From Candidatus Poseidoniaceae archaeon (GTDB lineage Archaea; Thermoplasmatota; Poseidoniia; Poseidoniales; Poseidoniaceae), in contig CASIBX010000022.1 of NCBI GenBank assembly GCA_949373075.1, positions 1-36,886 of the forward strand: a stretch of DNA of 36,886 nt, read 5' to 3'. Within the stretch, counting starts at the first letter, position 1, and each line of letters begins with the position of its first letter. This document shows positions 11,086 to 24,086 of the stretch, piece after piece. The position numbers were made by a program, and so were the translations under genes. Below the pieces are notes generated by a model. It was given only the letters and a program-made list of their open reading frames with translations, had not been told where the DNA came from and did no database searches.

Positions 11086-12591
11086 TCAACGATTTTGAGT
11101 TCCACAGACTGGGCAGAAGCGCCAATTAGGATCGACTCCAATTCGACAACCTCTGCAGTGAAGTCCTGAGCGGATTGTTGGTTGCATTGGCTGAACTGGT
11201 TGATTCCACCCTTGTTGTTGCTGCTGTTGCTGCTGTTGCTGTTGCTGTTGAGCCCAAGCCTGCTGTTGTTGTTGCTGAGCCCAAGCCTGTTGCTGTTGCT
11301 GCTGTTCTTGCTGCTGTTGCTGCTGTTGTTGCTGAGCCCAAGCCTGCTGCTGTTGTTGCTGTTGTTGCTGAGCCCATGCCTGCTGCTGTTCTTGCTGTTG
11401 GTCTTGCTGCTGAACCGGCTGAGGCTTCTGAATGCTAGCTCTAATCGGTTTCACAGGCTTAGGCAAAGCCATCTTTTCAATGACTTCGGGTTTAGATTTT
11501 AATTCTTCAAGAGTTACTTCTCCATCACCATCAGCATCAGCCTCCAAATGCAATTTTGTAGCTTCTTCAACTCCAAGGCCTGTCGCTTGTACTACTTCTT
11601 CGATAGACAGACCGCCACTTTTGTTAGTATCTGCTGCAGCGAAGGCATCATCAAGAGTAGGCTCGGGCTCAGGCTCTGGTTCTGGTTCAGGCTCTGGTTC
11701 TGGTTCAGGCTCTGGCTCTGGTTCCGGCTCTGGTTCCGGCTCTGGTTCCGGGTCAGGTTCTTCCTCAACCATTCCAAATGCTCCAGCGAACGCATCTTCT
11801 GTTTTCTCTGATTCTTTACGAACGTCGACCTCTACTTTTGGTTGCTCAATTGCAGGAAGAGGGACTGGATCGTCACTAGGAAGAGGAACGGTTTCATCTT
11901 GTTTTGGAAGTGGAATCGATGCAGGTTCTGGTTGCATCACAGGGTCTGGTTTGATCACCTGTGGCTTTACCTCAGGCTTAATTTCTTCAACTGTAGGTGT
12001 GGGTGGAACGTATGCTGCTTCGACTTCTTTGGCGATTGCATCTCCGCTAGACAAACTAGCGATAGGTGTTACATGACCTGCCACATCAAATGCTGCTTGT
12101 ACTTCGGTTGCTAGAGATAGTAAAGAATCCTTATTTGCAGCAGGGTTGGACATCAAAGATTCAACACCTTTGAGATACTTTGTTGCTTCTCCAGGCCCCC
12201 CTGTTTGCTGAGCGATTGCGAATAATTTTAGCAATCGCATTGGGTCCGCAATTTCACTCAATGATTTAGCGTCATCATCGGAAAATTGCCCTTCATTAAT
12301 AGCCAATGAAAGTTGCTCTGGCAATGACATTAGTCCAAGGTGGCCTGCCACGAGGAAATAGATCTCTCCTCCTTCGCAGGATAGCCGTTCACTGGCTAGT
12401 TCAAAGTCAAAATCTCCTGGCTTGAGAACAAGGTCTGACAGGAGACTAAAGAATTTCTCAAAGGCGTCTTCTCGAGACATCTCCATCATCTGATGAAGTG
12501 TATCAGATGACTCGAATACACCGAAATAAGCAGCGGCATCATCGACTTCGATACCATCTGGCATCGAGACATCGGCAATATCGTTACTCAT
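11086..12591 (-). CDS. EF-hand, polyglutamine and zinc-ribbon protein
   Basis: A 501-residue protein with no signal peptide or helix, so likely cytoplasmic. The start is ATG 12591, supported by a purine-rich ribosome site; a TTG at 12618 is less likely. Domains in order: a helical N-terminal domain (about 1-170), a Pro/Glu/Lys-rich linker, and a run of about fifteen Glu-Pro repeats (about 277-311). Two canonical EF-hand loops follow, DTNKSGGLSIEE (about 320-331) and DADGDGEVTLEE (about 351-362). Next is a glutamine tract cut by five AWAQ units (about 390-462). A C-terminal zinc ribbon of CxxC-x10-CxxC (CRGC...CPVC) ends the protein. It probably binds calcium and zinc. The low-complexity tracts suggest a flexible scaffold. 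It sits directly downstream of the giant surface protein gene on the same strand. No known family fits as a whole. Confidence 0.82.
   Translation of the reverse strand: MSNDIADVSMPDGIEVDDAAAYFGVFESSDTLHQMMEMSREDAFEKFFSLLSDLVLKPGDFDFELASERLSCEGGEIYFLVAGHLGLMSLPEQLSLAINEGQFSDDDAKSLSEIADPMRLLKLFAIAQQTGGPGEATKYLKGVESLMSNPAANKDSLLSLATEVQAAFDVAGHVTPIASLSSGDAIAKEVEAAYVPPTPTVEEIKPEVKPQVIKPDPVMQPEPASIPLPKQDETVPLPSDDPVPLPAIEQPKVEVDVRKESEKTEDAFAGAFGMVEEEPDPEPEPEPEPEPEPEPEPEPEPEPEPEPEPEPTLDDAFAAADTNKSGGLSIEEVVQATGLGVEEATKLHLEADADGDGEVTLEELKSKPEVIEKMALPKPVKPIRASIQKPQPVQQQDQQQEQQQAWAQQQQQQQQQAWAQQQQQQQQQEQQQQQQAWAQQQQQQAWAQQQQQQQQQQQQQGWNQPVQPMQPTIRSGLHCRGCRIGVDPNWRFCPVCGTQNR
11207..11420 (-). repeat. CAG/CAA-type repeat encoding (AWAQ)-interrupted polyglutamine
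   Basis: About 210 bases of mixed glutamine codons, seen as ctg/ttg triplets on the plus strand. They are broken at intervals by agcccaagcctg or agcccatgcctg (Ala-Trp-Ala-Gln). Such a tract can change length by slippage. The strand choice follows the gene; the antisense frames read as leucine or alanine/valine runs and are not genes. Confidence 0.9.
11656..11763 (-). repeat. Glu-Pro dipeptide repeat region
   Basis: Hexanucleotide-like repeats (ggttct, ggctct, ggttca, ggttcc on the plus strand) encode about fifteen Glu-Pro pairs. Third positions vary, so selection seems to keep the peptide, not the DNA. The peptide is expected to be a stiff, extended spacer before the EF-hands. Confidence 0.85.
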
Positions 12592-12659: not shown

Positions 12660-15600
12660 TCATTGCTTAGACAAATCAATGATTGCCCTAGATTGTGGAG
12701 CAGACCAACCAGTAGTTTGGAGTTGCATCAGGATTGTCCTTTCGGATTCTCCATCTTTCAAAGCGCCCTTTGTCCAATCGATTGCAGCTGTTCTGTCCTC
12801 TAATTCCTGAGGGGAAAATAAATCTGGGTCCATGGCAGCAACAGCCTTTCTGGCACTAGCGTCACCTATTGGTTTACGCTTGGCTACCTTCTTGCCCTTA
12901 CTTGGACCGCCTGGACCTCTACTAGGTCCACCTGGGCCTCTGCTTGGACCTGCTCCGCCGGGTGGACCACGACTTGGACCTCCTGGGCCTCGGCTTGGAC
13001 CTTCTCCGCCGGGTGGACCACGACTTGGGCCTCCTGGGCCTCGGCTTGGACCTTCTCCGCCGGGTGGACCACGACTTGGACCTCCTGGGCCTCGGCTTGG
13101 ACCTGCATTACTAGGTGGTCCTCGACTTGGGCCTGCATTACTAGGTGGACCACGTGATTGGTTTCTTCCGAGAACACTAGCCATGAAATCATCGTCGTCA
13201 TCATCATCATCTTCGTCATCCCAATCATCATCGTCTAAGTCAAAGTCATCTCCACCTCGAGATTTGGAAATTATGAAAATTATCAATATGATGAGGATAA
13301 GTCCCCCTCCTCCCGCAACAGCAAAGAAAGTCATTGAATCCATACCCATGATTAATTCCTCATCAGGTTCAGGTTCTGCCTGCGTTTCTTTCTTACAACC
13401 ACTAGGGTAAACTTCCGCTCCAGCTACAGTTCCTGGACAAGCATCTGCATCATCGGTTACTCCATCATTGTCGCTATCAGATTGGTAGTCTGCGCAACCA
13501 AAGTTGATTCTTGCTTGTTGAGTTCTGTCTCCTGCAGTACTAGTGTTCAAACATTGGTCTGCATCATTTCCGGCAGGGTTGTCACCCCAACTATCCAAGT
13601 CTTTGTCTTCCCACTGAGTACCATCTGCTGGGAATTTATCATCACCAAGGTTGTCATGATATCCATCTCCGTCAGAATCTAAACATCCGTATCGAGATTT
13701 CATTGTTGAATTGCCCCACTCTTCTGGGCAATCATCGGAATTATTGGCACTAGGGGCTTGTGAATCTCCATATCCATCGCCGTCCATATCATGCCACTGA
13801 GTAGAATCTAATGGGAAAGCATCGCCTTCATGAGTATCATTATCGGGATTGTAAGAGTAAGGTCCTTTGTAACCATCACCATCGATATCTTCTGCAAGAG
13901 CAGCCTCATCTAAGCAGCCATTGGATAGGACTGGTATGCCAGTTTCAGTACCTGGACAATCGTCCATCAAGTCGTTCACTCCGTCATCATCTGTATCCTT
14001 TTGAGCCAAGTTGCATCCACTTTCATCGATTGTTAATTGCGGGTTTGAGTCTGGACATAGGTCGTAAGGGTCAAAGATTCCATCTTCATCAGAATCGACC
14101 AGATTCTGACTATCTGAACATCCCATGCTGTCAACATCTTCACCAATAGGAGTGCTTGGACACATATCTTCTGCATCTGAAACATAATCTTGGTCGGTGT
14201 CTTTTTGATAATCGGAACATCCAATTTCATCAACTGCCTGTCCGGCTTGAGTATTATTACAATCATCGTAATCATCAGATACACCGTCTTGGTCATAATC
14301 GCTTTCTTCACCGATTATTGGACAGCCTACTCCATTGGTTCCGTTAATGACACCAAAGTCATACGGGCATCTATCAGGGTCGTTTCCTTGCTGGTTATCT
14401 CCCCAGCCGTCACCATCTGTATCTGCCATTTGTGTTGGGTCACCTGGGAATACATCTGATGAATCTTCTCGACCGTCACCATCTGTATCAGTACAACCAT
14501 AGTAGGATACTATCAGGCCAGAAGAGTCTACTGAAGATGTTGAATTACCAGCCACATTAGGGCAATTATCTACCATAAGTCCTGCACGATTTGTACCATC
14601 GTCTAATGCAGTCCAGTTATTTGGATAGCCGTCGTTATCGGTATCATTTGCTGCTGAAGGGTTGGTAGGGAATTTATCGGGAAGAGTTGCTCCATCTGAT
14701 GAATTATCTCCATATCCATCTTCGTCACTATCGGCCCATTGCGTACCATCACTTGGCCACCAGTCTGCACCATCTTGCTCATTCCACTCTTTACTTGTGC
14801 CAATGTCAGACGGGTCTGAAGCACCATCCCCATCAGTATCTACACATCCAAGTCGGTCTCTCCATGAGAATCCTTGGATCCAAAAACATGCGTCACCAAA
14901 TTCCTCATCGGATGAATTGTCACCGTAGCCATCATTGTCATTGTCTTCCCATTGCATACGGTTGTATGGGAATAGGTCAGGAACACTGCTTTCTACAGTG
15001 CCTAAGACGGTTACATCACAACAATCAGGCCCATGGTTATCGCCGAAGGAGTCTCTATCTGAATCTAGAGCTTGTTTCCAATTTGTTGGATATCTATCTC
15101 CATCTACGAATACTGCGTCATTATCTGCCCAGCCATCTTGGTCATAATCGTCACAACCATAGTAACCCCACCAAGAGGTTCCGTCATCGTTTACACAGTC
15201 ATCGGTGATATCTGACCAGCCATCTTCGTCATAATCATCACAGCCATTTCGGTCATAGGTAGATAATCCGAATGAAGATGGGCATTCATCGGATAATGGC
15301 CCTAATGAGTTGTCTCCAAAACCATCTAAATCTGAATCTGCCCACTGGTTTCCAAGCATAGGTAAGTCATCATGCGAATCTGGAATCAAATCCCTATCTA
15401 AATCACTAACCATCCTCATCAAGAGGAAATCATCTGTAGATGATTGAGAGTAAGCCATCATCAAAGTGCCATCGCTCTCTAAGAGAGGTACACCATAATC
15501 TGTGGTTATTGCAGGGAATACTGTTGAGATTTGAATATCTGATGATGAAAGTGTTCCAGTAGTCCAAACCAATTGGTTAGAGGAATCTGTAGATGTAAGA

Positions 15601-18600
15601 TGCCATCTCTGTCCGACTTGCAGTAGATGGTACTCGGTCATAGTGTCAGGAATATCTCGCAAATCTACACTCCAATTTCCGTTATCTTCGGTTATGATAC
15701 CTTGAGATGTGGAGTTATTTGTATCAAAGAAAATAATCTGCCCTGTCATTACCAAATTGTAATTGTCACTAACTAGCAACCCAATTTGTTTAGCAACACT
15801 CCAATTACCACCATTAATGAGTCTCTCATAAACAGTTAACTGATTGGAGTCCATGACTGAAATTACCAATTTATCATCAAAATCGGTAATCTCTATCTCT
15901 GCACTAGTCGTGACATTGGCAATATCTGTGACCGTAGATGTTCCATTGTGATATTCAACTAATTGTAGGGCAGTAGAGTTTGAGGAATTCGCAACTTGAA
16001 TGAATAGAAGAGTATCATCTAACCAGATTGAATCGAAGTCATCTCCGATTGTAGTGTTTAGAATTGATTCTTCACTCCAGGTGCTATTTAGGGTAGCTAA
16101 TGTGACCATATTCTCATCATCAACGTATACCATTCTAGACATTTCATCCCCATCGACGAACATATTGATTGGGTGAATTAAATCAATTCCAGTACGCATT
16201 GTACTGGTTGTGAAACCATCAGCTGTCTCTTCGGTGTAGAAGATTGATGAGAAGCCAGGAGAGGCATGGCCAATCCTCTGATAACCGTTAGAATCGAGAT
16301 CTGAGCCCATTAATTTGCCCAGTCCAGTTCCTGTGTTCAAGGAATAATCTAGACCAGTGTTGCCTTCAACTGTCATTGTAGCCAGTGAATTATTTGCAGT
16401 GATTAGGATAAGCAACGGTTTGCCTGAACTAGAAATGCCCATGTGCGCGTCGTTTGCAGAAGTTAGTGTTCGTGTCACCCATCGGCCTGAAGGAGTACCA
16501 TCTAGGGTATTTTCGACGATATTGACACTGGAATCTGAAAGCATTACCATCATCGAAGGACTACCTCGCAAGGGAGTATGCATATCGATTCCAACAACTG
16601 GGTTTTCGAATGAGAAATCGACATACTCCCAATCTCTTTCTGACATTATGGTTAGTAGTGGACCGAAATCATCGCCTCGAGTTAAGTCTCTAGAAGAGTA
16701 AAGGATTTCACCCATTCCATCACCATCTAAGTCAATGCCTGAAAGAATATTCAATCCGACATTTTCACCATTAGAGCCTTGAGCGAATAATTGGGTGTCG
16801 ATTCTAGGGCCGTTGGCAGAACCGAGGTAAAGGTCGATTTTACCTGACTTTGTTGGACCAGGTGACATCAATAAGAAATCATCAAATCCATCTTCATTTA
16901 CATCTCCTGCTGGCGAAATGGTTTGTCCCACCAAATCATTGGCAGAGCCTACTACATTCCATGTCGTACCGGGAACTGGGAAAACCGGACCTGTACTAGA
17001 GCCAGCCCACATGTACACTTTCCCTGAATGATAAAGATTGGTTTGAGCGTATAATTCGCTGATTAAAATATCATCAAAACCATCGCCATTGACATCTCCA
17101 ATAAATGCCATCTCGGCCCCATACAATCGACCTTGGTCGAGCGGAGCGTGCGTATTACCTGTACTATCGAGAACAATACCGGTTGAGTCCCCAAAGAAGA
17201 ATTCTACAGAAGAATATCCGGTTGGAGTATCTAGGCTACCTGTGTTGGAGACAACCATATCTAGGAAACCATCTCCATTTATGTCACCGTTTCCGATGAC
17301 TTGACGTCCAAACATAGTGCCTGATTCTGATTGTGTTACGTTACCATGGTGAATCATGGAGGACATATTTCCTTTGAGAACCATTACCAATCCATTCTTA
17401 GATAAACTCGCAGTCGAATTTTCTTCTATCATTTTGTCGGCAACGACTGCCAAATCAGTACAACCATCTGACTCTACATCTCCTAGGGATGTCAAAGACC
17501 ATCCAAGGTTGTCATCATCGCTACCATTCATTTCCCACCATGCATCGGTAGCGACTCCAGAAGAAGAGCCCAACCTGATAGAGATATGTCCTGAGTTATT
17601 GATTGCCATTCCCGGTTCACTAGAAGCGATATCATCAAACCCATCACAGTTGAAATCGCCGATTGCTAAACCAGTACCCAACATTGAGTCGCTAAATGAA
17701 CCAACCAAAATTCTGTCAGCTAATGCACCCGGCCCATCTGGAGAGCCATAGTGAATTGAGATTGTGCCATTTCCATCAGTATCGGTGTAAACTAAATCGT
17801 CTCTACCATCACCGTTCAAATCACCGCTTACAACTGTGCCTTCAACTGAATCATCATCATAATTGATGATCCATTTAGGGTCAGGGTCAATTCTGCCAGT
17901 ATCCTTGCCAGAAAGACTACGAAGTAGCGAAATTGTGTTATTTCCTAATCCATCTGATTTAGAATAAGTGATTTGTCCGACATCATTGGTATCAAGGTCC
18001 ATGCCGATAGCAGAAGTTACCGTACTACCTCTTGCTAAGACTTGTCTTGTCTCGATTGTGTCATTGAACTTTAACAAGCGTAATTCGCCTTCAGCTGAAT
18101 TTGTGTATAGAATGTGATACATGCCACTGGAGTCGATTTCCACTTCGATATCGTCACCGATTGGCCCTTGGTCTAGAATTGTATTATTCCAGTATGCTTT
18201 GTTGAACCAAAGATGATGCAGTGCCATATCGGTATTTTGGAATATGATTTGAGTCTTTGAATCTGCATCTAGGGAGATAGTTAATCCTCCATTGAAAACA
18301 TCTTCAACTATTGTTCGCAAATGCCATGTTCTTTCTGCGTACACTGCATTTGGCTCTGCTAACCTAGCCAATCGCAGGTCATCATCGACATTGTATACGA
18401 TTTGAATTCGATGCTGAATCCCTATTGCAATTGCACATTCATCTGCCTGTACCGATAATGTCTCGACCAAAATAGTTTCAAAAGTACCATCCAGGGAGAT
18501 GGTGTGCATATTCACTTCAGTGCCATTGATTGAACAAGCATAACCTATACCATCCTCGGTAACAATCAGGTCCATTGCAGCGCTAGCATTTACATCATGA

Positions 18601-18848
18601 GATGTCAAATTCCAATAATCAAGAACAGATTCTCCCCTGACTGTCCAATTCTTGCCATCAATGCTGATTAAATCTCCTTGCAAGTCATGACCTGAGCCAC
18701 TAGATAATGACACAGATTGCGACGGAGTTGCCTCTTTGGAAGGTAATTCAGTAGTAGGAAGGGCAACCATGGGCGCGAGGATTTGAATTACAAAGACAGC
18801 GAAAATCGCGAGGGGTATTCCCTTGTTTCGCCATGACATAACTTCCAT
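12660..18848 (-). CDS. Giant membrane-anchored surface protein: FG-GAP propeller, type-3 repeats, long cytoplasmic tail
   Basis: A 2062-residue protein. It has a signal peptide (residues about 1-30, PLAIFAVFVIQILAPMVA), then about 300 residues with propeller-like strands. At about 340-720 there are FG-GAP (integrin alpha-like) calcium repeats such as GDLNGDGRDDLVYTD, GDVNGDGFDDILISE and GDVNEDGFDDFLLMSPG. A second propeller-like region precedes some 650 residues of Asp-rich thrombospondin type-3-like repeats (about 1150-1800, units like DSDGDGYHD with WADSDLDGFGDN). One helix (about 1838-1862, GGGGLILIILIIFIISK) puts the tail inside the cell. The tail has an Asp run, GPSRG repeats and a helical end domain (WTKGALKDGESERTILMQL, TGWSAPQSRAIIDL). 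Starts at GTG 18851 or ATG 18839 are also possible. Likely role: calcium-stiffened adhesion or surface-layer stalk (inferred). Confidence 0.9.
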   Translation of the reverse strand: MEVMSWRNKGIPLAIFAVFVIQILAPMVALPTTELPSKEATPSQSVSLSSGSGHDLQGDLISIDGKNWTVRGESVLDYWNLTSHDVNASAAMDLIVTEDGIGYACSINGTEVNMHTISLDGTFETILVETLSVQADECAIAIGIQHRIQIVYNVDDDLRLARLAEPNAVYAERTWHLRTIVEDVFNGGLTISLDADSKTQIIFQNTDMALHHLWFNKAYWNNTILDQGPIGDDIEVEIDSSGMYHILYTNSAEGELRLLKFNDTIETRQVLARGSTVTSAIGMDLDTNDVGQITYSKSDGLGNNTISLLRSLSGKDTGRIDPDPKWIINYDDDSVEGTVVSGDLNGDGRDDLVYTDTDGNGTISIHYGSPDGPGALADRILVGSFSDSMLGTGLAIGDFNCDGFDDIASSEPGMAINNSGHISIRLGSSSGVATDAWWEMNGSDDDNLGWSLTSLGDVESDGCTDLAVVADKMIEENSTASLSKNGLVMVLKGNMSSMIHHGNVTQSESGTMFGRQVIGNGDINGDGFLDMVVSNTGSLDTPTGYSSVEFFFGDSTGIVLDSTGNTHAPLDQGRLYGAEMAFIGDVNGDGFDDILISELYAQTNLYHSGKVYMWAGSSTGPVFPVPGTTWNVVGSANDLVGQTISPAGDVNEDGFDDFLLMSPGPTKSGKIDLYLGSANGPRIDTQLFAQGSNGENVGLNILSGIDLDGDGMGEILYSSRDLTRGDDFGPLLTIMSERDWEYVDFSFENPVVGIDMHTPLRGSPSMMVMLSDSSVNIVENTLDGTPSGRWVTRTLTSANDAHMGISSSGKPLLILITANNSLATMTVEGNTGLDYSLNTGTGLGKLMGSDLDSNGYQRIGHASPGFSSIFYTEETADGFTTSTMRTGIDLIHPINMFVDGDEMSRMVYVDDENMVTLATLNSTWSEESILNTTIGDDFDSIWLDDTLLFIQVANSSNSTALQLVEYHNGTSTVTDIANVTTSAEIEITDFDDKLVISVMDSNQLTVYERLINGGNWSVAKQIGLLVSDNYNLVMTGQIIFFDTNNSTSQGIITEDNGNWSVDLRDIPDTMTEYHLLQVGQRWHLTSTDSSNQLVWTTGTLSSSDIQISTVFPAITTDYGVPLLESDGTLMMAYSQSSTDDFLLMRMVSDLDRDLIPDSHDDLPMLGNQWADSDLDGFGDNSLGPLSDECPSSFGLSTYDRNGCDDYDEDGWSDITDDCVNDDGTSWWGYYGCDDYDQDGWADNDAVFVDGDRYPTNWKQALDSDRDSFGDNHGPDCCDVTVLGTVESSVPDLFPYNRMQWEDNDNDGYGDNSSDEEFGDACFWIQGFSWRDRLGCVDTDGDGASDPSDIGTSKEWNEQDGADWWPSDGTQWADSDEDGYGDNSSDGATLPDKFPTNPSAANDTDNDGYPNNWTALDDGTNRAGLMVDNCPNVAGNSTSSVDSSGLIVSYYGCTDTDGDGREDSSDVFPGDPTQMADTDGDGWGDNQQGNDPDRCPYDFGVINGTNGVGCPIIGEESDYDQDGVSDDYDDCNNTQAGQAVDEIGCSDYQKDTDQDYVSDAEDMCPSTPIGEDVDSMGCSDSQNLVDSDEDGIFDPYDLCPDSNPQLTIDESGCNLAQKDTDDDGVNDLMDDCPGTETGIPVLSNGCLDEAALAEDIDGDGYKGPYSYNPDNDTHEGDAFPLDSTQWHDMDGDGYGDSQAPSANNSDDCPEEWGNSTMKSRYGCLDSDGDGYHDNLGDDKFPADGTQWEDKDLDSWGDNPAGNDADQCLNTSTAGDRTQQARINFGCADYQSDSDNDGVTDDADACPGTVAGAEVYPSGCKKETQAEPEPDEELIMGMDSMTFFAVAGGGGLILIILIIFIISKSRGGDDFDLDDDDWDDEDDDDDDDDFMASVLGRNQSRGPPSNAGPSRGPPSNAGPSRGPGGPSRGPPGGEGPSRGPGGPSRGPPGGEGPSRGPGGPSRGPPGGAGPSRGPGGPSRGPGGPSKGKKVAKRKPIGDASARKAVAAMDPDLFSPQELEDRTAAIDWTKGALKDGESERTILMQLQTTGWSAPQSRAIIDLSKQ
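12905..13152 (-). repeat. Tandem GPSRG-coding repeat with 51-bp units
   Basis: Three near-identical 51-bp units (12961-13011, 13012-13062, 13063-13113) each encode 17 residues of GPSRGPGGPSRGPPGGE type, flanked by degenerate copies. Near-identity at DNA level points to recent expansion. The units lie in the cytoplasmic tail of the giant surface protein and would be flexible and positively charged next to an Asp run. Confidence 0.9.
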
Positions 18849-18891
18849 CACATCTACCGTCCTACATTACTATTCCCAAGGGATGATTACA

Positions 18892-20380: not shown

Positions 20381-21637
20381 TTACCACCTCTTCCAAACCA
20401 GTGAGGAACGGTCCCACCAATCTACTTCTCCATCGTCATGACGTCGCCAAAGCATCCCATTATCATCTTCATGGGTAGGTAGTCCTTCTGCGTCTGGTTC
20501 GCCTGTTTCATCTAACATTATGTTGCCCACTTGGTCATCTTCAGGGCCTTTCATCATCAATACGAATACTGCAATTCCAAGAACAATTGCTAAAATTCCG
20601 ATTCCGAAAATCCCAACATTCGAGGTTTCAGTTTCTTCACCTCTCGATAGTACTGGAGCATCATCATCTGTAGTAACTTCAGCAGATGGCATTCTGATTA
20701 ACATAGTTCCACCTGTGGTTTTTATTTCCTCATCATTGGTAACGGTGAGGAGGATTTTGTAAACACCAGAATCCCATTTTGAACAATCCAAACTACTAGC
20801 ATTTGCAGCCATTCCGATCGAAGGAGTAATTATCCAATCTTTGGTATAATCGTCATGGTTTTCACCGGCAGCTTGTACATGCGAGATAGTGCATGGAGTG
20901 CCCGCCAATGCGTCGTTACCATTTATTTCAATAGTAAAATGAGGAGGAGGTTTGTTGACAATAACTAGTTCCAATGTATCGGAAGTAGTCTGTCCTAGTC
21001 CATTTTGATAGGTTTCACTTACGATGTAGGTGCCTGCTGGCCAATTGCTACAATCCAACTTGTCATCAGAATCCAAGACCTTGAACGGAGTGCCAATAAT
21101 CGACCTAGTGCCGACAAAGTCCCAACGTGGTCCAGTTTCATCGATGAAATCTCTTGTAATCTCACAACCATCTCCAGTTTGCATTATCTCTGAGCCTGAC
21201 AGTACCAATTCTACCGAAGGAACCGCTAGTGCTGGGCTCAAATCGAATGTTCCAATTGTTATGGATTTGAGTAATCTGCCGTCAGCATCACTAATTTCTA
21301 AAATCAAACGATGCTCTCCAGTTGCCCATGAATCATAGGTTAGTGATGCATTTTCTTGGTCATCAAAGGACATCAATACCTCTTCTTTAACGGTGAATCC
21401 TGAATGTTCACCGATTAGAGTGAGTGTCAAATCAACCCACTGCTGAGTAGAGTTTAGAACGACTACAACCCTAATCGCATCCATCATTCCATCTTGATTA
21501 CTATCCAAACTATCGTTTCTCAAAGCGACCAAATTTAGTCCTGCAGAAACGAATGGATCTGACTCCTCTTCCTCTGCTGAGACTTGCCCAACAAGGGAAA
21601 GTGAGAGCATTAACGCGATTAAGAACCACTCACGCAT
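20381..21637 (-). CDS. Secreted, C-terminally anchored protein with Trp-rich cytoplasmic tail
   Basis: A 418-residue protein from ATG 21637; a GGAGGTGA site rules out the GTG further up. A signal peptide (1-21, WFLIALMLSLSLVGQVSA) is followed by an Asp/Asn calcium-like stretch (DSNQDGMMDAI). Three beta-rich, Ig-like modules of about 90 residues follow; the last two share a paired-cysteine layout (GCEI...DCSNWPAGTYIV and CTISHV...DCSKWDSGVYKI). One helix (about 339-361, GIGILAIVLGIAVFVLMM) leads to a 50-residue inner tail ending GMLWRRHDDGEVDWWDR, which looks like a small Trp-rich binding module. It overlaps the upstream 818-residue protein gene by 8 bases and abuts the Lnb-like gene, so these three form one operon. 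The ligand is unknown. Confidence 0.82.
   Translation of the reverse strand: MREWFLIALMLSLSLVGQVSAEEEESDPFVSAGLNLVALRNDSLDSNQDGMMDAIRVVVVLNSTQQWVDLTLTLIGEHSGFTVKEEVLMSFDDQENASLTYDSWATGEHRLILEISDADGRLLKSITIGTFDLSPALAVPSVELVLSGSEIMQTGDGCEITRDFIDETGPRWDFVGTRSIIGTPFKVLDSDDKLDCSNWPAGTYIVSETYQNGLGQTTSDTLELVIVNKPPPHFTIEINGNDALAGTPCTISHVQAAGENHDDYTKDWIITPSIGMAANASSLDCSKWDSGVYKILLTVTNDEEIKTTGGTMLIRMPSAEVTTDDDAPVLSRGEETETSNVGIFGIGILAIVLGIAVFVLMMKGPEDDQVGNIMLDETGEPDAEGLPTHEDDNGMLWRRHDDGEVDWWDRSSLVWKRW
20384..20390 (-). promoter_or_regulatory. Shine-Dalgarno selecting the TTG start of the Lnb-like gene
   Basis: GAGGTGG on the minus strand, four bases before TTG 20379. It lies inside the last codons of the upstream gene, so translation is likely coupled. 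Confidence 0.7.
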
Positions 21638-24086
21638 CCTGTTCACCTCCATCACGATTGGAAGTCAAGCCTTTTTCGAGAGAAGAAACCGAACGAGAGG
21701 AACGAAGAATCATTGCTAGGCCGGATGAGATTAACATGGAAACTCCCAATATCAGGTAAGAAAGCCAACTGGATGCTGGCTCTTCACCCATTGTAGAAAC
21801 CGCTGCATTCCATCCACCGTACTCGTCAGACCAGCCATCTCCATCTTGGTCTGGACAGCCTTGAACATCTCTAGTAGATGAGCCGGATACATTAGGACAG
21901 TCATCTCTTCTTGAGCCCATACCAACATCGCCAAACCCATCTTCATCAGCATCTTGCCACTGCAATCTGTCTGTTGGGAAGGCGTCTGCTTCACCCCATG
22001 GAGATGCTAACCAATTCTGTGATGGGTCGGACCAACCGTCACCATCTGAATCTCTACATCCTAGTCTATCAAAGAAGGATTGTCCACGTTCATTTGGACA
22101 TGCATCTCCTTCATGTCCATCCGAATTATCTCCAAAACCATCACCGTCGTTATCACGCCACTGGGTTGGTTCATGCATGAAGGAATCTCCTAAGTCAGAC
22201 CACCCATCTCCATCGGTGTCATGACAACCCCAACGGTCTCCACCAGAGGTTGGTCCAAGTGAAGTTCCAGGAACATCTGGGCAAACATCTGCAGTGGTTC
22301 CTCGAGGATTGTCCCCTCTGCCATCTCCATCTCTGTCATGCCATTGTGTAACATCTGCTGGCCAAGCATCTCCGATTCCACCCGGACTTGCTAACCAGTG
22401 AGTAGTAGGGTCAGACCAACCATCGCCGTCTGAATCAGGACAGCCCCAGCGGTCCATGGCAGAGTTTCCTTCAGTTGCTACACAACCGTCGCCACGCCAA
22501 GCTTCACGCCAGGTTTCGCCATCGAAATATTCGAGATTGTCACCATATCCATCATCGTCAGTATCATGCCATTGGCTCTCATCATCAGGGAAAGCATCTG
22601 CGAAACCATCAGGGTGAGAAATCCACCAGTCATCAGGATTGGAATAACCATCAGTATCTGAATCTAGACAACCGAATCTATCAGCCCAACTAATCCATCC
22701 GCTTTCAACTTCCTCAACTGTGCTAAGGGGACAAACATCTCCTTCAAAACCGGTTATATCATCGCCATAACCATCGCCATCTGTATCTCGATATTGACTA
22801 GGAATAAATGGGAAGTCGTCTACTTGAGAGGCTCCATAAGATTGGTTGTCACCCCAACCATCCCCATCTGTATCAAGCCACTGCGAGGGATTATCTGGGA
22901 AATCATCGATTTGTAAAGCGCCTTCACTTTGGTTATCTCCCCAACCATCATTATCTCGATCTTTCCATTGAGTCGGGTTTTCTGGGAAAGCGTCGGCTCC
23001 ACTACCTGCTGTCCAATTAGCATCGGGGTTAGACCAGCCATCATTATCTCCATCAGGACAACCAAACCGGTCTTCGCTTGAGTAGCCGGTTATGAATGGG
23101 CATGCATCTGGCTCACTGGCGTTGTCATACCAGTTGCCGATTGACCAATTCAAGCGAGTATCGTTCCATGTAACGTCTGCCCAATTGTCACCAAACCCGT
23201 CCTCATCAGTATCATTCCACTGACTGGGCACGTATGGGAAAGCGTCTGCTGAACCGTTTGGATGAGCAAACCAAGCCTCTATTCCGTCCAAACCACCAGG
23301 ATCGGCATCCGACCAACTGTCCCCATCAGAATCGAGACAACCAAAGCGGTCAGATGTTGAATAGCCACGGCGGTAAGGGCAGTGGTCTGGTTCGAATCCA
23401 TCGATATTATCACCAAATCCATCGTTATCAGAATCCATCCATTGAGTAGGTTCTGTAGCGAAAGCATCAGCTCCGTTATTTGGGCCCCATCCAGTATCAG
23501 GGTCTGACCATCCATCTGAATCTGTATCGATGCATCCCTTGCGGTCATTGGTTGAAGTTCCCGGTGTCAAATCACAATCATCTTCGTTATCGATGAAACC
23601 ATCTTCATCACTATCGCGATTATCCTGATTCAAAGATGGGGTTAAGGTATAATCAACACCATCATTGCACCAACTATCCTTGCCCTTGATTTTGACATAA
23701 ACCCACCCGGCTCCAGGCATTGTTGTAGAAAGAGTGGTCGATGAACCGCCATCATCCATAGCCTGACTAGCAACTTGTGAACCTTGGTCGTCATGAATTG
23801 AAAAATCTGCTTCCCAGCCATCGCCAGGACACAAAAACCAGGGATTGTTCATCGAACCAGAAAAGCCAACTTGAACTATATCTCCTTTGTAAGCATAAAT
23901 TTTCCACCAATCGACTTCATCGTTTGGAGAACACCCGTCATCATAGCAAACATAGCCGTTTGTAGAGACCCCATTTGTGAGCGGAGTAGCGCTTGTTATG
24001 TCGTCATCCGCTTCCACGGCGGGTAAAACCGTTAACAAGCAGACTGCGAGGAAGAACACCGTCCACTGCCTCGCGCGCATGTACAT
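21630..24086 (-). CDS. Anchored surface protein made of thrombospondin type-3-like calcium repeats
   Basis: An 818-residue protein. After a signal peptide (about 1-26, WTVFFLAVCLLTVLPAVEA), residues 30-145 form a PPC-like beta-sandwich (DEVDWWKIYAYKGDIVQVGF ... GWVYVKIKG). About 620 residues of repeats follow, each pairing DSDGDGWSDP with FPTEPTQWMDSDNDGFGDN and a cysteine block (DACPNERGQS, RLGCRDSD). The spacing is regular at about 35-60 residues and gives a long, calcium-stabilised rod. A C-terminal helix (about 775-796, WLSYLILGVSMLISSGLAMIL) and a short charged tail anchor it. The repeat style closely matches the 2062-residue protein, so the two are probably paralogous rods. ATG 24080 is an alternative start. 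A 28-base palindrome covers the start region. Confidence 0.9.
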   Translation of the reverse strand: MYMRARQWTVFFLAVCLLTVLPAVEADDDITSATPLTNGVSTNGYVCYDDGCSPNDEVDWWKIYAYKGDIVQVGFSGSMNNPWFLCPGDGWEADFSIHDDQGSQVASQAMDDGGSSTTLSTTMPGAGWVYVKIKGKDSWCNDGVDYTLTPSLNQDNRDSDEDGFIDNEDDCDLTPGTSTNDRKGCIDTDSDGWSDPDTGWGPNNGADAFATEPTQWMDSDNDGFGDNIDGFEPDHCPYRRGYSTSDRFGCLDSDGDSWSDADPGGLDGIEAWFAHPNGSADAFPYVPSQWNDTDEDGFGDNWADVTWNDTRLNWSIGNWYDNASEPDACPFITGYSSEDRFGCPDGDNDGWSNPDANWTAGSGADAFPENPTQWKDRDNDGWGDNQSEGALQIDDFPDNPSQWLDTDGDGWGDNQSYGASQVDDFPFIPSQYRDTDGDGYGDDITGFEGDVCPLSTVEEVESGWISWADRFGCLDSDTDGYSNPDDWWISHPDGFADAFPDDESQWHDTDDDGYGDNLEYFDGETWREAWRGDGCVATEGNSAMDRWGCPDSDGDGWSDPTTHWLASPGGIGDAWPADVTQWHDRDGDGRGDNPRGTTADVCPDVPGTSLGPTSGGDRWGCHDTDGDGWSDLGDSFMHEPTQWRDNDGDGFGDNSDGHEGDACPNERGQSFFDRLGCRDSDGDGWSDPSQNWLASPWGEADAFPTDRLQWQDADEDGFGDVGMGSRRDDCPNVSGSSTRDVQGCPDQDGDGWSDEYGGWNAAVSTMGEEPASSWLSYLILGVSMLISSGLAMILRSSRSVSSLEKGLTSNRDGGEQDA
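21643..21650 (-). promoter_or_regulatory. Perfect Shine-Dalgarno for the 418-residue exoprotein
   Basis: GGAGGTGA on the minus strand, five bases before ATG 21637 and within the end of the upstream gene. Confidence 0.8.

Follow-up and report, generated by a model that had tools for sequence, protein, structure and literature searches.

Integrin-type receptors that work with a cytoplasmic adaptor combine an FG-GAP propeller outside the cell, one transmembrane helix and an EF-hand-bearing intracellular partner. A similar arrangement, by analogy only, is predicted for the archaeal protein pair described here; homology of its intracellular member to talin, kindlin or calcium-and-integrin-binding proteins was not detected. 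Thrombospondin genes of the order Ca. Poseidoniales, whose published families are Ca. Poseidoniaceae and Ca. Thalassarchaeaceae, have been connected with cell adhesion (Rinke et al., PMC6461757). Q-rich segments have a per-residue occupancy that is uniquely high in eukaryotes (PMC11132505), and no paper on Marine Group II and polyglutamine was found in the literature searched. The window, i.e. the whole stretch of DNA that was analysed, comprises 36,886 nucleotides of contig CASIBX010000022.1 from a Ca. Poseidoniaceae archaeon. The product of the ORF at 11086-12591 is termed POI and the product of the upstream gene GIANT; families f1 and f2 were taken as Ca. Poseidoniaceae and Ca. Thalassarchaeaceae, respectively, and g numbers denote genera. 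POI is an orphan, order-specific and predicted intracellular protein tied to a giant surface protein in Marine Group II, the commonest archaea of the surface ocean and among its most abundant uncultured groups. Its modules are individually known but their combination was not found in the literature searched.

The POI ORF extends on the minus strand from an ATG at 12591 to a stop codon ending at 11086 and encodes 501 aa. The start codon was consistent with the starts of orthologues in an alignment, confirming that the ORF reported in the preliminary description is real. From the N- to the C-terminus, POI consists of a helical domain, a Pro/Glu linker, (EP)15, two canonical EF-hand loops, a Gln tract and a CxxC-x10-CxxC motif. 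The features are as follows:

11086..12591, minus strand: POI, with N-terminal helical domain, disordered linker, EF-hand pair, Q/W tract and zinc ribbon (ORF and orthologues)
12022..12591, minus strand: N-terminal all-alpha domain, aa 1-190, with a confident fold from about aa 28 (invariant columns and AlphaFold2)
11776..11796, minus strand: DAFAGAF motif of the disordered linker, kept in most relatives in the form xAFxxAF / ASAF (orthologue sequences)
11659..11748, minus strand: (Glu-Pro)15 rod, variable in length and nearly absent in several congeners
11596..11631, minus strand: EF-hand loop 1, DTNKSGGLSIEE, canonical here and degenerate in genus g11 (Pfam EF-hand)
11503..11538, minus strand: EF-hand loop 2, DADGDGEVTLEE, canonical (Pfam)
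11440..11466, minus strand: LPKPVKPIR motif, generally of the form LP[KR]PVxPxRxPI / APKRAPI and kept throughout the order
11206..11412, minus strand: interrupted polyglutamine tract with four AWAQ units (codons, runs, W spacing and genus-wide (CAR)8 scan)
11104..11157, minus strand: C-terminal zinc ribbon, CRGCRIGVDPNWRFCPVC, CxxC-x10-CxxC (orthologue alignments)

The domain list of the preliminary description, its claim that polyQ is rare and the connection with a giant surface-protein gene all held, whilst its calcium and condensate reading was weakened as a core function by the absence of the EF-hands or Q tract from several genera. The best conserved part of POI is the N-terminal ~190 aa (12022-12591), which had been overlooked. 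A signal peptide was looked for in POI and none was found, and the 19-residue hydropathy maximum was 1.2; on these grounds POI is predicted to be a cytoplasmic, i.e. intracellular, protein. The parts that are constant across the order are the N-terminal helical domain and the C-terminal zinc ribbon, and the linker between them is Pro-rich and disordered with recurring VPLP, DAFAGAF and LPKPVxPxRxPI motifs. The CxxC-x10-CxxC motif was kept in all orthologues with an intact frame read to the end. This ribbon resembles DZR with scores under the Pfam cut-offs (DZR, 17.6 vs 27.3; Zn_Ribbon_1, 15 vs 25). NCBIfam matches to SslE, DNA polymerase III gamma/tau and XopAW were rejected as due to low complexity or EF-hands and fell far under the cut-offs; the match to the XopAW-type calcium-binding effector (24.4 bits vs a cut-off of 120) came from the EF-hand and Q-rich part only.

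The preliminary description had named a giant calcium-repeat surface protein with a low-complexity inner tail as the product of the preceding gene, and GIANT was indeed found directly upstream on the same strand:

12660..18851, minus strand: GIANT, 2063 aa, with signal peptide, FG-GAP repeats, thrombospondin-3-like Ca repeats and one TM helix
13269..13337, minus strand: transmembrane helix, followed by basic residues (hydropathy)
13188..13250, minus strand: juxtamembrane Asp-rich stretch, net charge -18, conserved
12900..13187, minus strand: cytoplasmic GPSRGPP low-complexity tail (Arg/Gly/Pro-rich), net charge +9
12666..12812, minus strand: C-terminal three-helix module, ERTILMQLQTTGWSAPQSRAI, a candidate docking site for POI (alignments and AlphaFold2)

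FG-GAP matches in GIANT exceeded the Pfam cut-offs (36.5 vs 26.9; 32.1 vs 22.1), and the plan of the protein (~2,100 aa) was common to all complete relatives read. As basic residues follow the transmembrane helix, the tail is predicted by the positive-inside rule to be cytoplasmic. GIANT resembles the thrombospondin-type-3/FG-GAP surface adhesins of Marine Group II in having FG-GAP and TSP3-like Asp repeats (thrombospondin genes in the order: PMC6461757). It differs in the GIANT-POI pairing, the intracellular tail module and POI itself, which were not found described in the literature searched. AlphaFold2 modelled the C-terminal module as three helices (about 89-97 pLDDT). This module gave nothing significant in a PDB fold search (best E 0.96) and no match in Pfam; a UBA-like identity was rejected, being matched by 1 of 36 members at E 0.13 with no significant PDB fold. 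Among seven genomes searched, the module occurred once in each of four with POI and in none of three without it. A short RKPIG-like motif is common to the GIANT tail (KVAKRKPIG, 12870-12890) and the POI linker (11440-11466; PVRKPIG-type in relatives).

The N-terminal 215 aa of POI, used as a query, detected the gene in most genomes of its own family and in some of the sister family. The best 80 matches kept from a scan of 84,980 species genomes were Marine Group II records and one Ca. Thermoplasmatota record. A search of related archaeal genomes for the domain combination had been suggested; in a phylum-wide profile search homologues were found only in Ca. Poseidoniales, with none outside this order in the sample, and none were present in viral contigs or plasmids. 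GIANT was located immediately upstream of POI on the same strand in 99 of 102 loci, separated by -11 to 211 nt (median 67), the exceptions being two contig/locus edges and one locus of genus g5. In locus L039 the pair was intact though most other neighbours were rearranged. The block TPK-GIANT-POI-M29 is broadly syntenic in the order and hence the adjacency partly reflects descent. Both genes were present in 14 of 22 genera and neither in seven; POI occurred alone in one (g5) and GIANT alone in none, a co-occurrence that may reflect only one or two losses. In the genomes checked that had GIANT and no detected POI, GIANT ran to the contig end. An association with the archaellum was rejected, as g7, g17 and g21 have POI/GIANT without archaellin (PF01917) and g14 and g22 show the reverse.

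In genus g5 (four genomes; L131, L132, L133 and L166), GIANT is gone from between the thiamin pyrophosphokinase gene and POI whilst the flanking genes are kept, indicating that POI has a use without GIANT. This retention of POI at the same place, together with the synteny of the neighbourhood as a block, would be expected if POI were a general cytosolic factor (e.g. one assisting the biogenesis or translocation of large surface proteins) that follows GIANT for historical reasons and carries its EF-hands and Q-rich linker as lineage embellishments. However, g18 and g20 encode other giant FG-GAP proteins (about 2,150 aa) and yet lack both POI and GIANT, which argues that POI is no general helper for giant surface proteins. 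This explanation is considered rather unlikely, but it is a serious rival to the adaptor reading proposed below.

The N-terminal domain is defined by the invariant alignment columns VDDAAAYFG...FDFExASERLxCEGGEIYYLVAGHLG, with a GGEIYYL-type core, and was modelled by AlphaFold2 with nine helices (pLDDT 82.5, pTM 0.77). Nothing significant was obtained for this domain in a PDB fold search (best E 0.8, TM about 0.2) or in Pfam, and a PDB sequence profile gave one chance match (E 0.23). Both this domain and the GIANT tail module are without a Pfam or PDB counterpart at the sensitivities used. The helix-rich nature of the domain, a weak HTH_ParB match in 2 of 72 members (under the Pfam cut-off) and the appearance of weak TetR-type folds in the PDB fold list are compatible with POI being a gene-expression regulator in which an HTH-like N-terminal domain is combined with a zinc ribbon and a region that is glutamine-rich and activation-like. 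None of these folds was significant, and the domain and most of POI are strongly acidic (net charge of -23 for aa 1-195), which disfavours DNA binding; a regulatory role is very improbable.

We tentatively propose, as a plausible reading, that POI is a cytoplasmic adaptor of the giant adhesin-like surface protein GIANT. This proposal is supported by the predicted topology, in which POI shares a compartment with the GIANT tail, by the genetic linkage of the two and by the occurrence of the GIANT C-terminal module only in genomes with POI among the seven searched. Counted against it were the retention of POI without GIANT in g5, the share of descent in the adjacency and the lack of resemblance of the N-terminal domain to any known adaptor. 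POI and GIANT would then constitute a two-gene unit of Ca. Poseidoniales with the POI gene as the downstream half. GIANT would expose its FG-GAP propeller and calcium-binding repeats on the cell exterior, cross the membrane once as a helix and continue inside as a low-complexity tail that terminates in the small helical module. We infer physical contact between POI and GIANT, in which POI would dock on this tail through its N-terminal domain or linker motifs and bind another partner through its zinc ribbon, whilst several copies would be tethered and clustered by the long disordered linker. The linker of Poseidoniaceae gained a Q-rich segment with regularly spaced Trp, which would permit multivalent self-association, and many lineages acquired an EF-hand pair through which the assembly could respond to cytosolic Ca2+. 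If the adaptor reading is true, it provides a testable path by which contact outside could be converted into organisation within a cell so far uncultured.

Both EF-hand loops of POI fit the canonical DxDxDG...E pattern and scored above the Pfam cut-offs for EF-hand_5 (34.5 vs 25.9 bits, E=1.2e-8) and EF-hand_1 (34.2 vs 25.4 bits, E=1.3e-8), and their PDB sequence matches were calmodulin-type chains (best E=7e-8). As in EF-hand proteins of the calmodulin superfamily, these 12-residue canonical loops are paired and lie about 31 residues apart; POI differs in that its single pair sits within a disordered protein, has degenerated in one genus and is missing from others. The pair was present in f1 genera g1, g2, g3, g4, g6, g8, g9 and g10, whilst one loop was degenerate in g11 and one was off the strict pattern in g15. 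EF-hands were absent from g5, g7, g19 and two of three g17 members, all of which kept the N-terminal domain and zinc ribbon, so calcium binding cannot be the core function of POI. Gain and loss of the EF-hands required at least four changes on the domain tree. Most POI lineages carry loops of a predicted calcium-binding type as an optional add-on. The g5 POI lacks both EF-hands and Q tract, a coincidence suggestive only of the add-ons mattering when GIANT is present, and a weak one because an EF-less POI accompanies GIANT in g7, g19 and part of g17.

The polyglutamine tract contains 52 Q in 69 residues, with Gln runs of 3, 3, 3, 9, 9, 6, 6 and 13. Ten matches to eight consecutive Gln codons were found in the window genome, equalling the ten expected from the POI runs of 9, 9 and 13; all (CAR)8 matches thus belong to the POI gene, in agreement with the claimed rarity of polyQ. 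Such matches were present in 18 of 27 genus genomes and, among the matches listed, most genomes had all of them in one stretch. This archaeal tract is nearly the sole one in its genome, and has been repeatedly rebuilt with spaced tryptophans; long Gln runs appear confined to the POI gene in nearly all genomes of the genus. In several genomes the matches lay at a contig end or on a contig other than that of the N-terminal half, as expected of assemblies interrupted within the gene. Just one further clear polyQ site was seen in the genus, a Gln-codon run at G005:C2:74122-74151, on a contig other than that of the G005 POI. Assemblies seem to break in EP or Gln stretches (G014:C48, G008:C3, G024:C146, G009:C66 and G022:C4), with the C-terminal half often on another contig, and the POI gene is therefore under-reported in metagenome assemblies.

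Absence of the tract from all orthologues, or its origin as an assembly artefact, had been named as grounds for doubt. Every complete orthologue examined in the genus had a Gln-rich tract (longest pure run 4 to 14 Gln), and an artefact was rejected since the tract is complete in many species-level relatives, among them AG-461-G23 and AH-273-F07, single-cell genomes judging by their names. Across the order, the Q-rich segment was confined to most Poseidoniaceae genera, being absent from f2 and from g2, g5 and g6 with the N-terminal domain and zinc ribbon kept, and the fewest changes on the domain tree were two. PolyQ is thus an optional, derived trait of part of Poseidoniaceae.

Four AWAQ units were present as previously described, but these were only roughly regular in this species (W-W gaps of 12, 19, 9 and 16; p=0.036 vs random placement) and more regular in relatives. 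Pooling of 55 linkers gave 49% Gln, 16% Pro and 5.6% Trp; for the 41 linkers with at least four Trp, the median CV of Trp spacing was 0.16 vs 0.66 for random placement, and 78% had p<=0.05. The W-containing units varied among relatives (i.e. AWAQ, AWLAQ, AWQ and GWNQ), and Trp was retained while Gln runs drifted. One explanation is that repeat slippage produces and varies the polyQ/AWAQ and EP stretches, which would be neutral disordered spacers with no condensate or calcium role: tract sequence and length differ between species, EP is nearly absent in some congeners, the sister family has no Gln tract and G022 has a long (CAGCAA)n run suggestive of slippage. Even Trp spacing could arise solely through tandem duplication of a W-containing unit. 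Set against this are the maintenance of Trp with far more even spacing than random though the units differ by species, and the interleaving of the Gln codons (29 CAG and 23 CAA) with no pure triplet run; neutrality is unlikely, but is a serious rival to the adaptor reading. Nine other window genes used 151 CAA vs 49 CAG.

The Q/W tract is hypothesised to fit a sticker-and-spacer type. Like eukaryotic polyQ and prion-like proteins, POI has a long Gln tract with regularly placed aromatics, a sticker-and-spacer-like pattern in composition and spacing only; it differs in being archaeal, in its CAA/CAG mixture and in the position of the tract between EF-hands and a zinc ribbon. A calcium-gated condensate scaffold under the giant adhesin, with Q/W linkers clustering POI on GIANT tails and EF-hands tuning this clustering as a prokaryotic counterpart of animal adhesion plaques, is improbable. 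Within the adaptor reading, calcium sensing and condensation would be lineage-specific options.

A second giant family of 2,157-2,231 aa, with a weak FG-GAP match and QGYDEATAAQYAQQYAAQYAQ-like tail ends, was observed at L135 4686-11159, L136 4121-10597, L137 7567-14103 and L138 4157-10852. This family occurs in genera without GIANT/POI and also in G036. Within the window, an 818-aa neighbour at 21630-24086 is similar to GIANT (about 30% identity over part), hinting at a possible cluster of calcium-repeat surface proteins.
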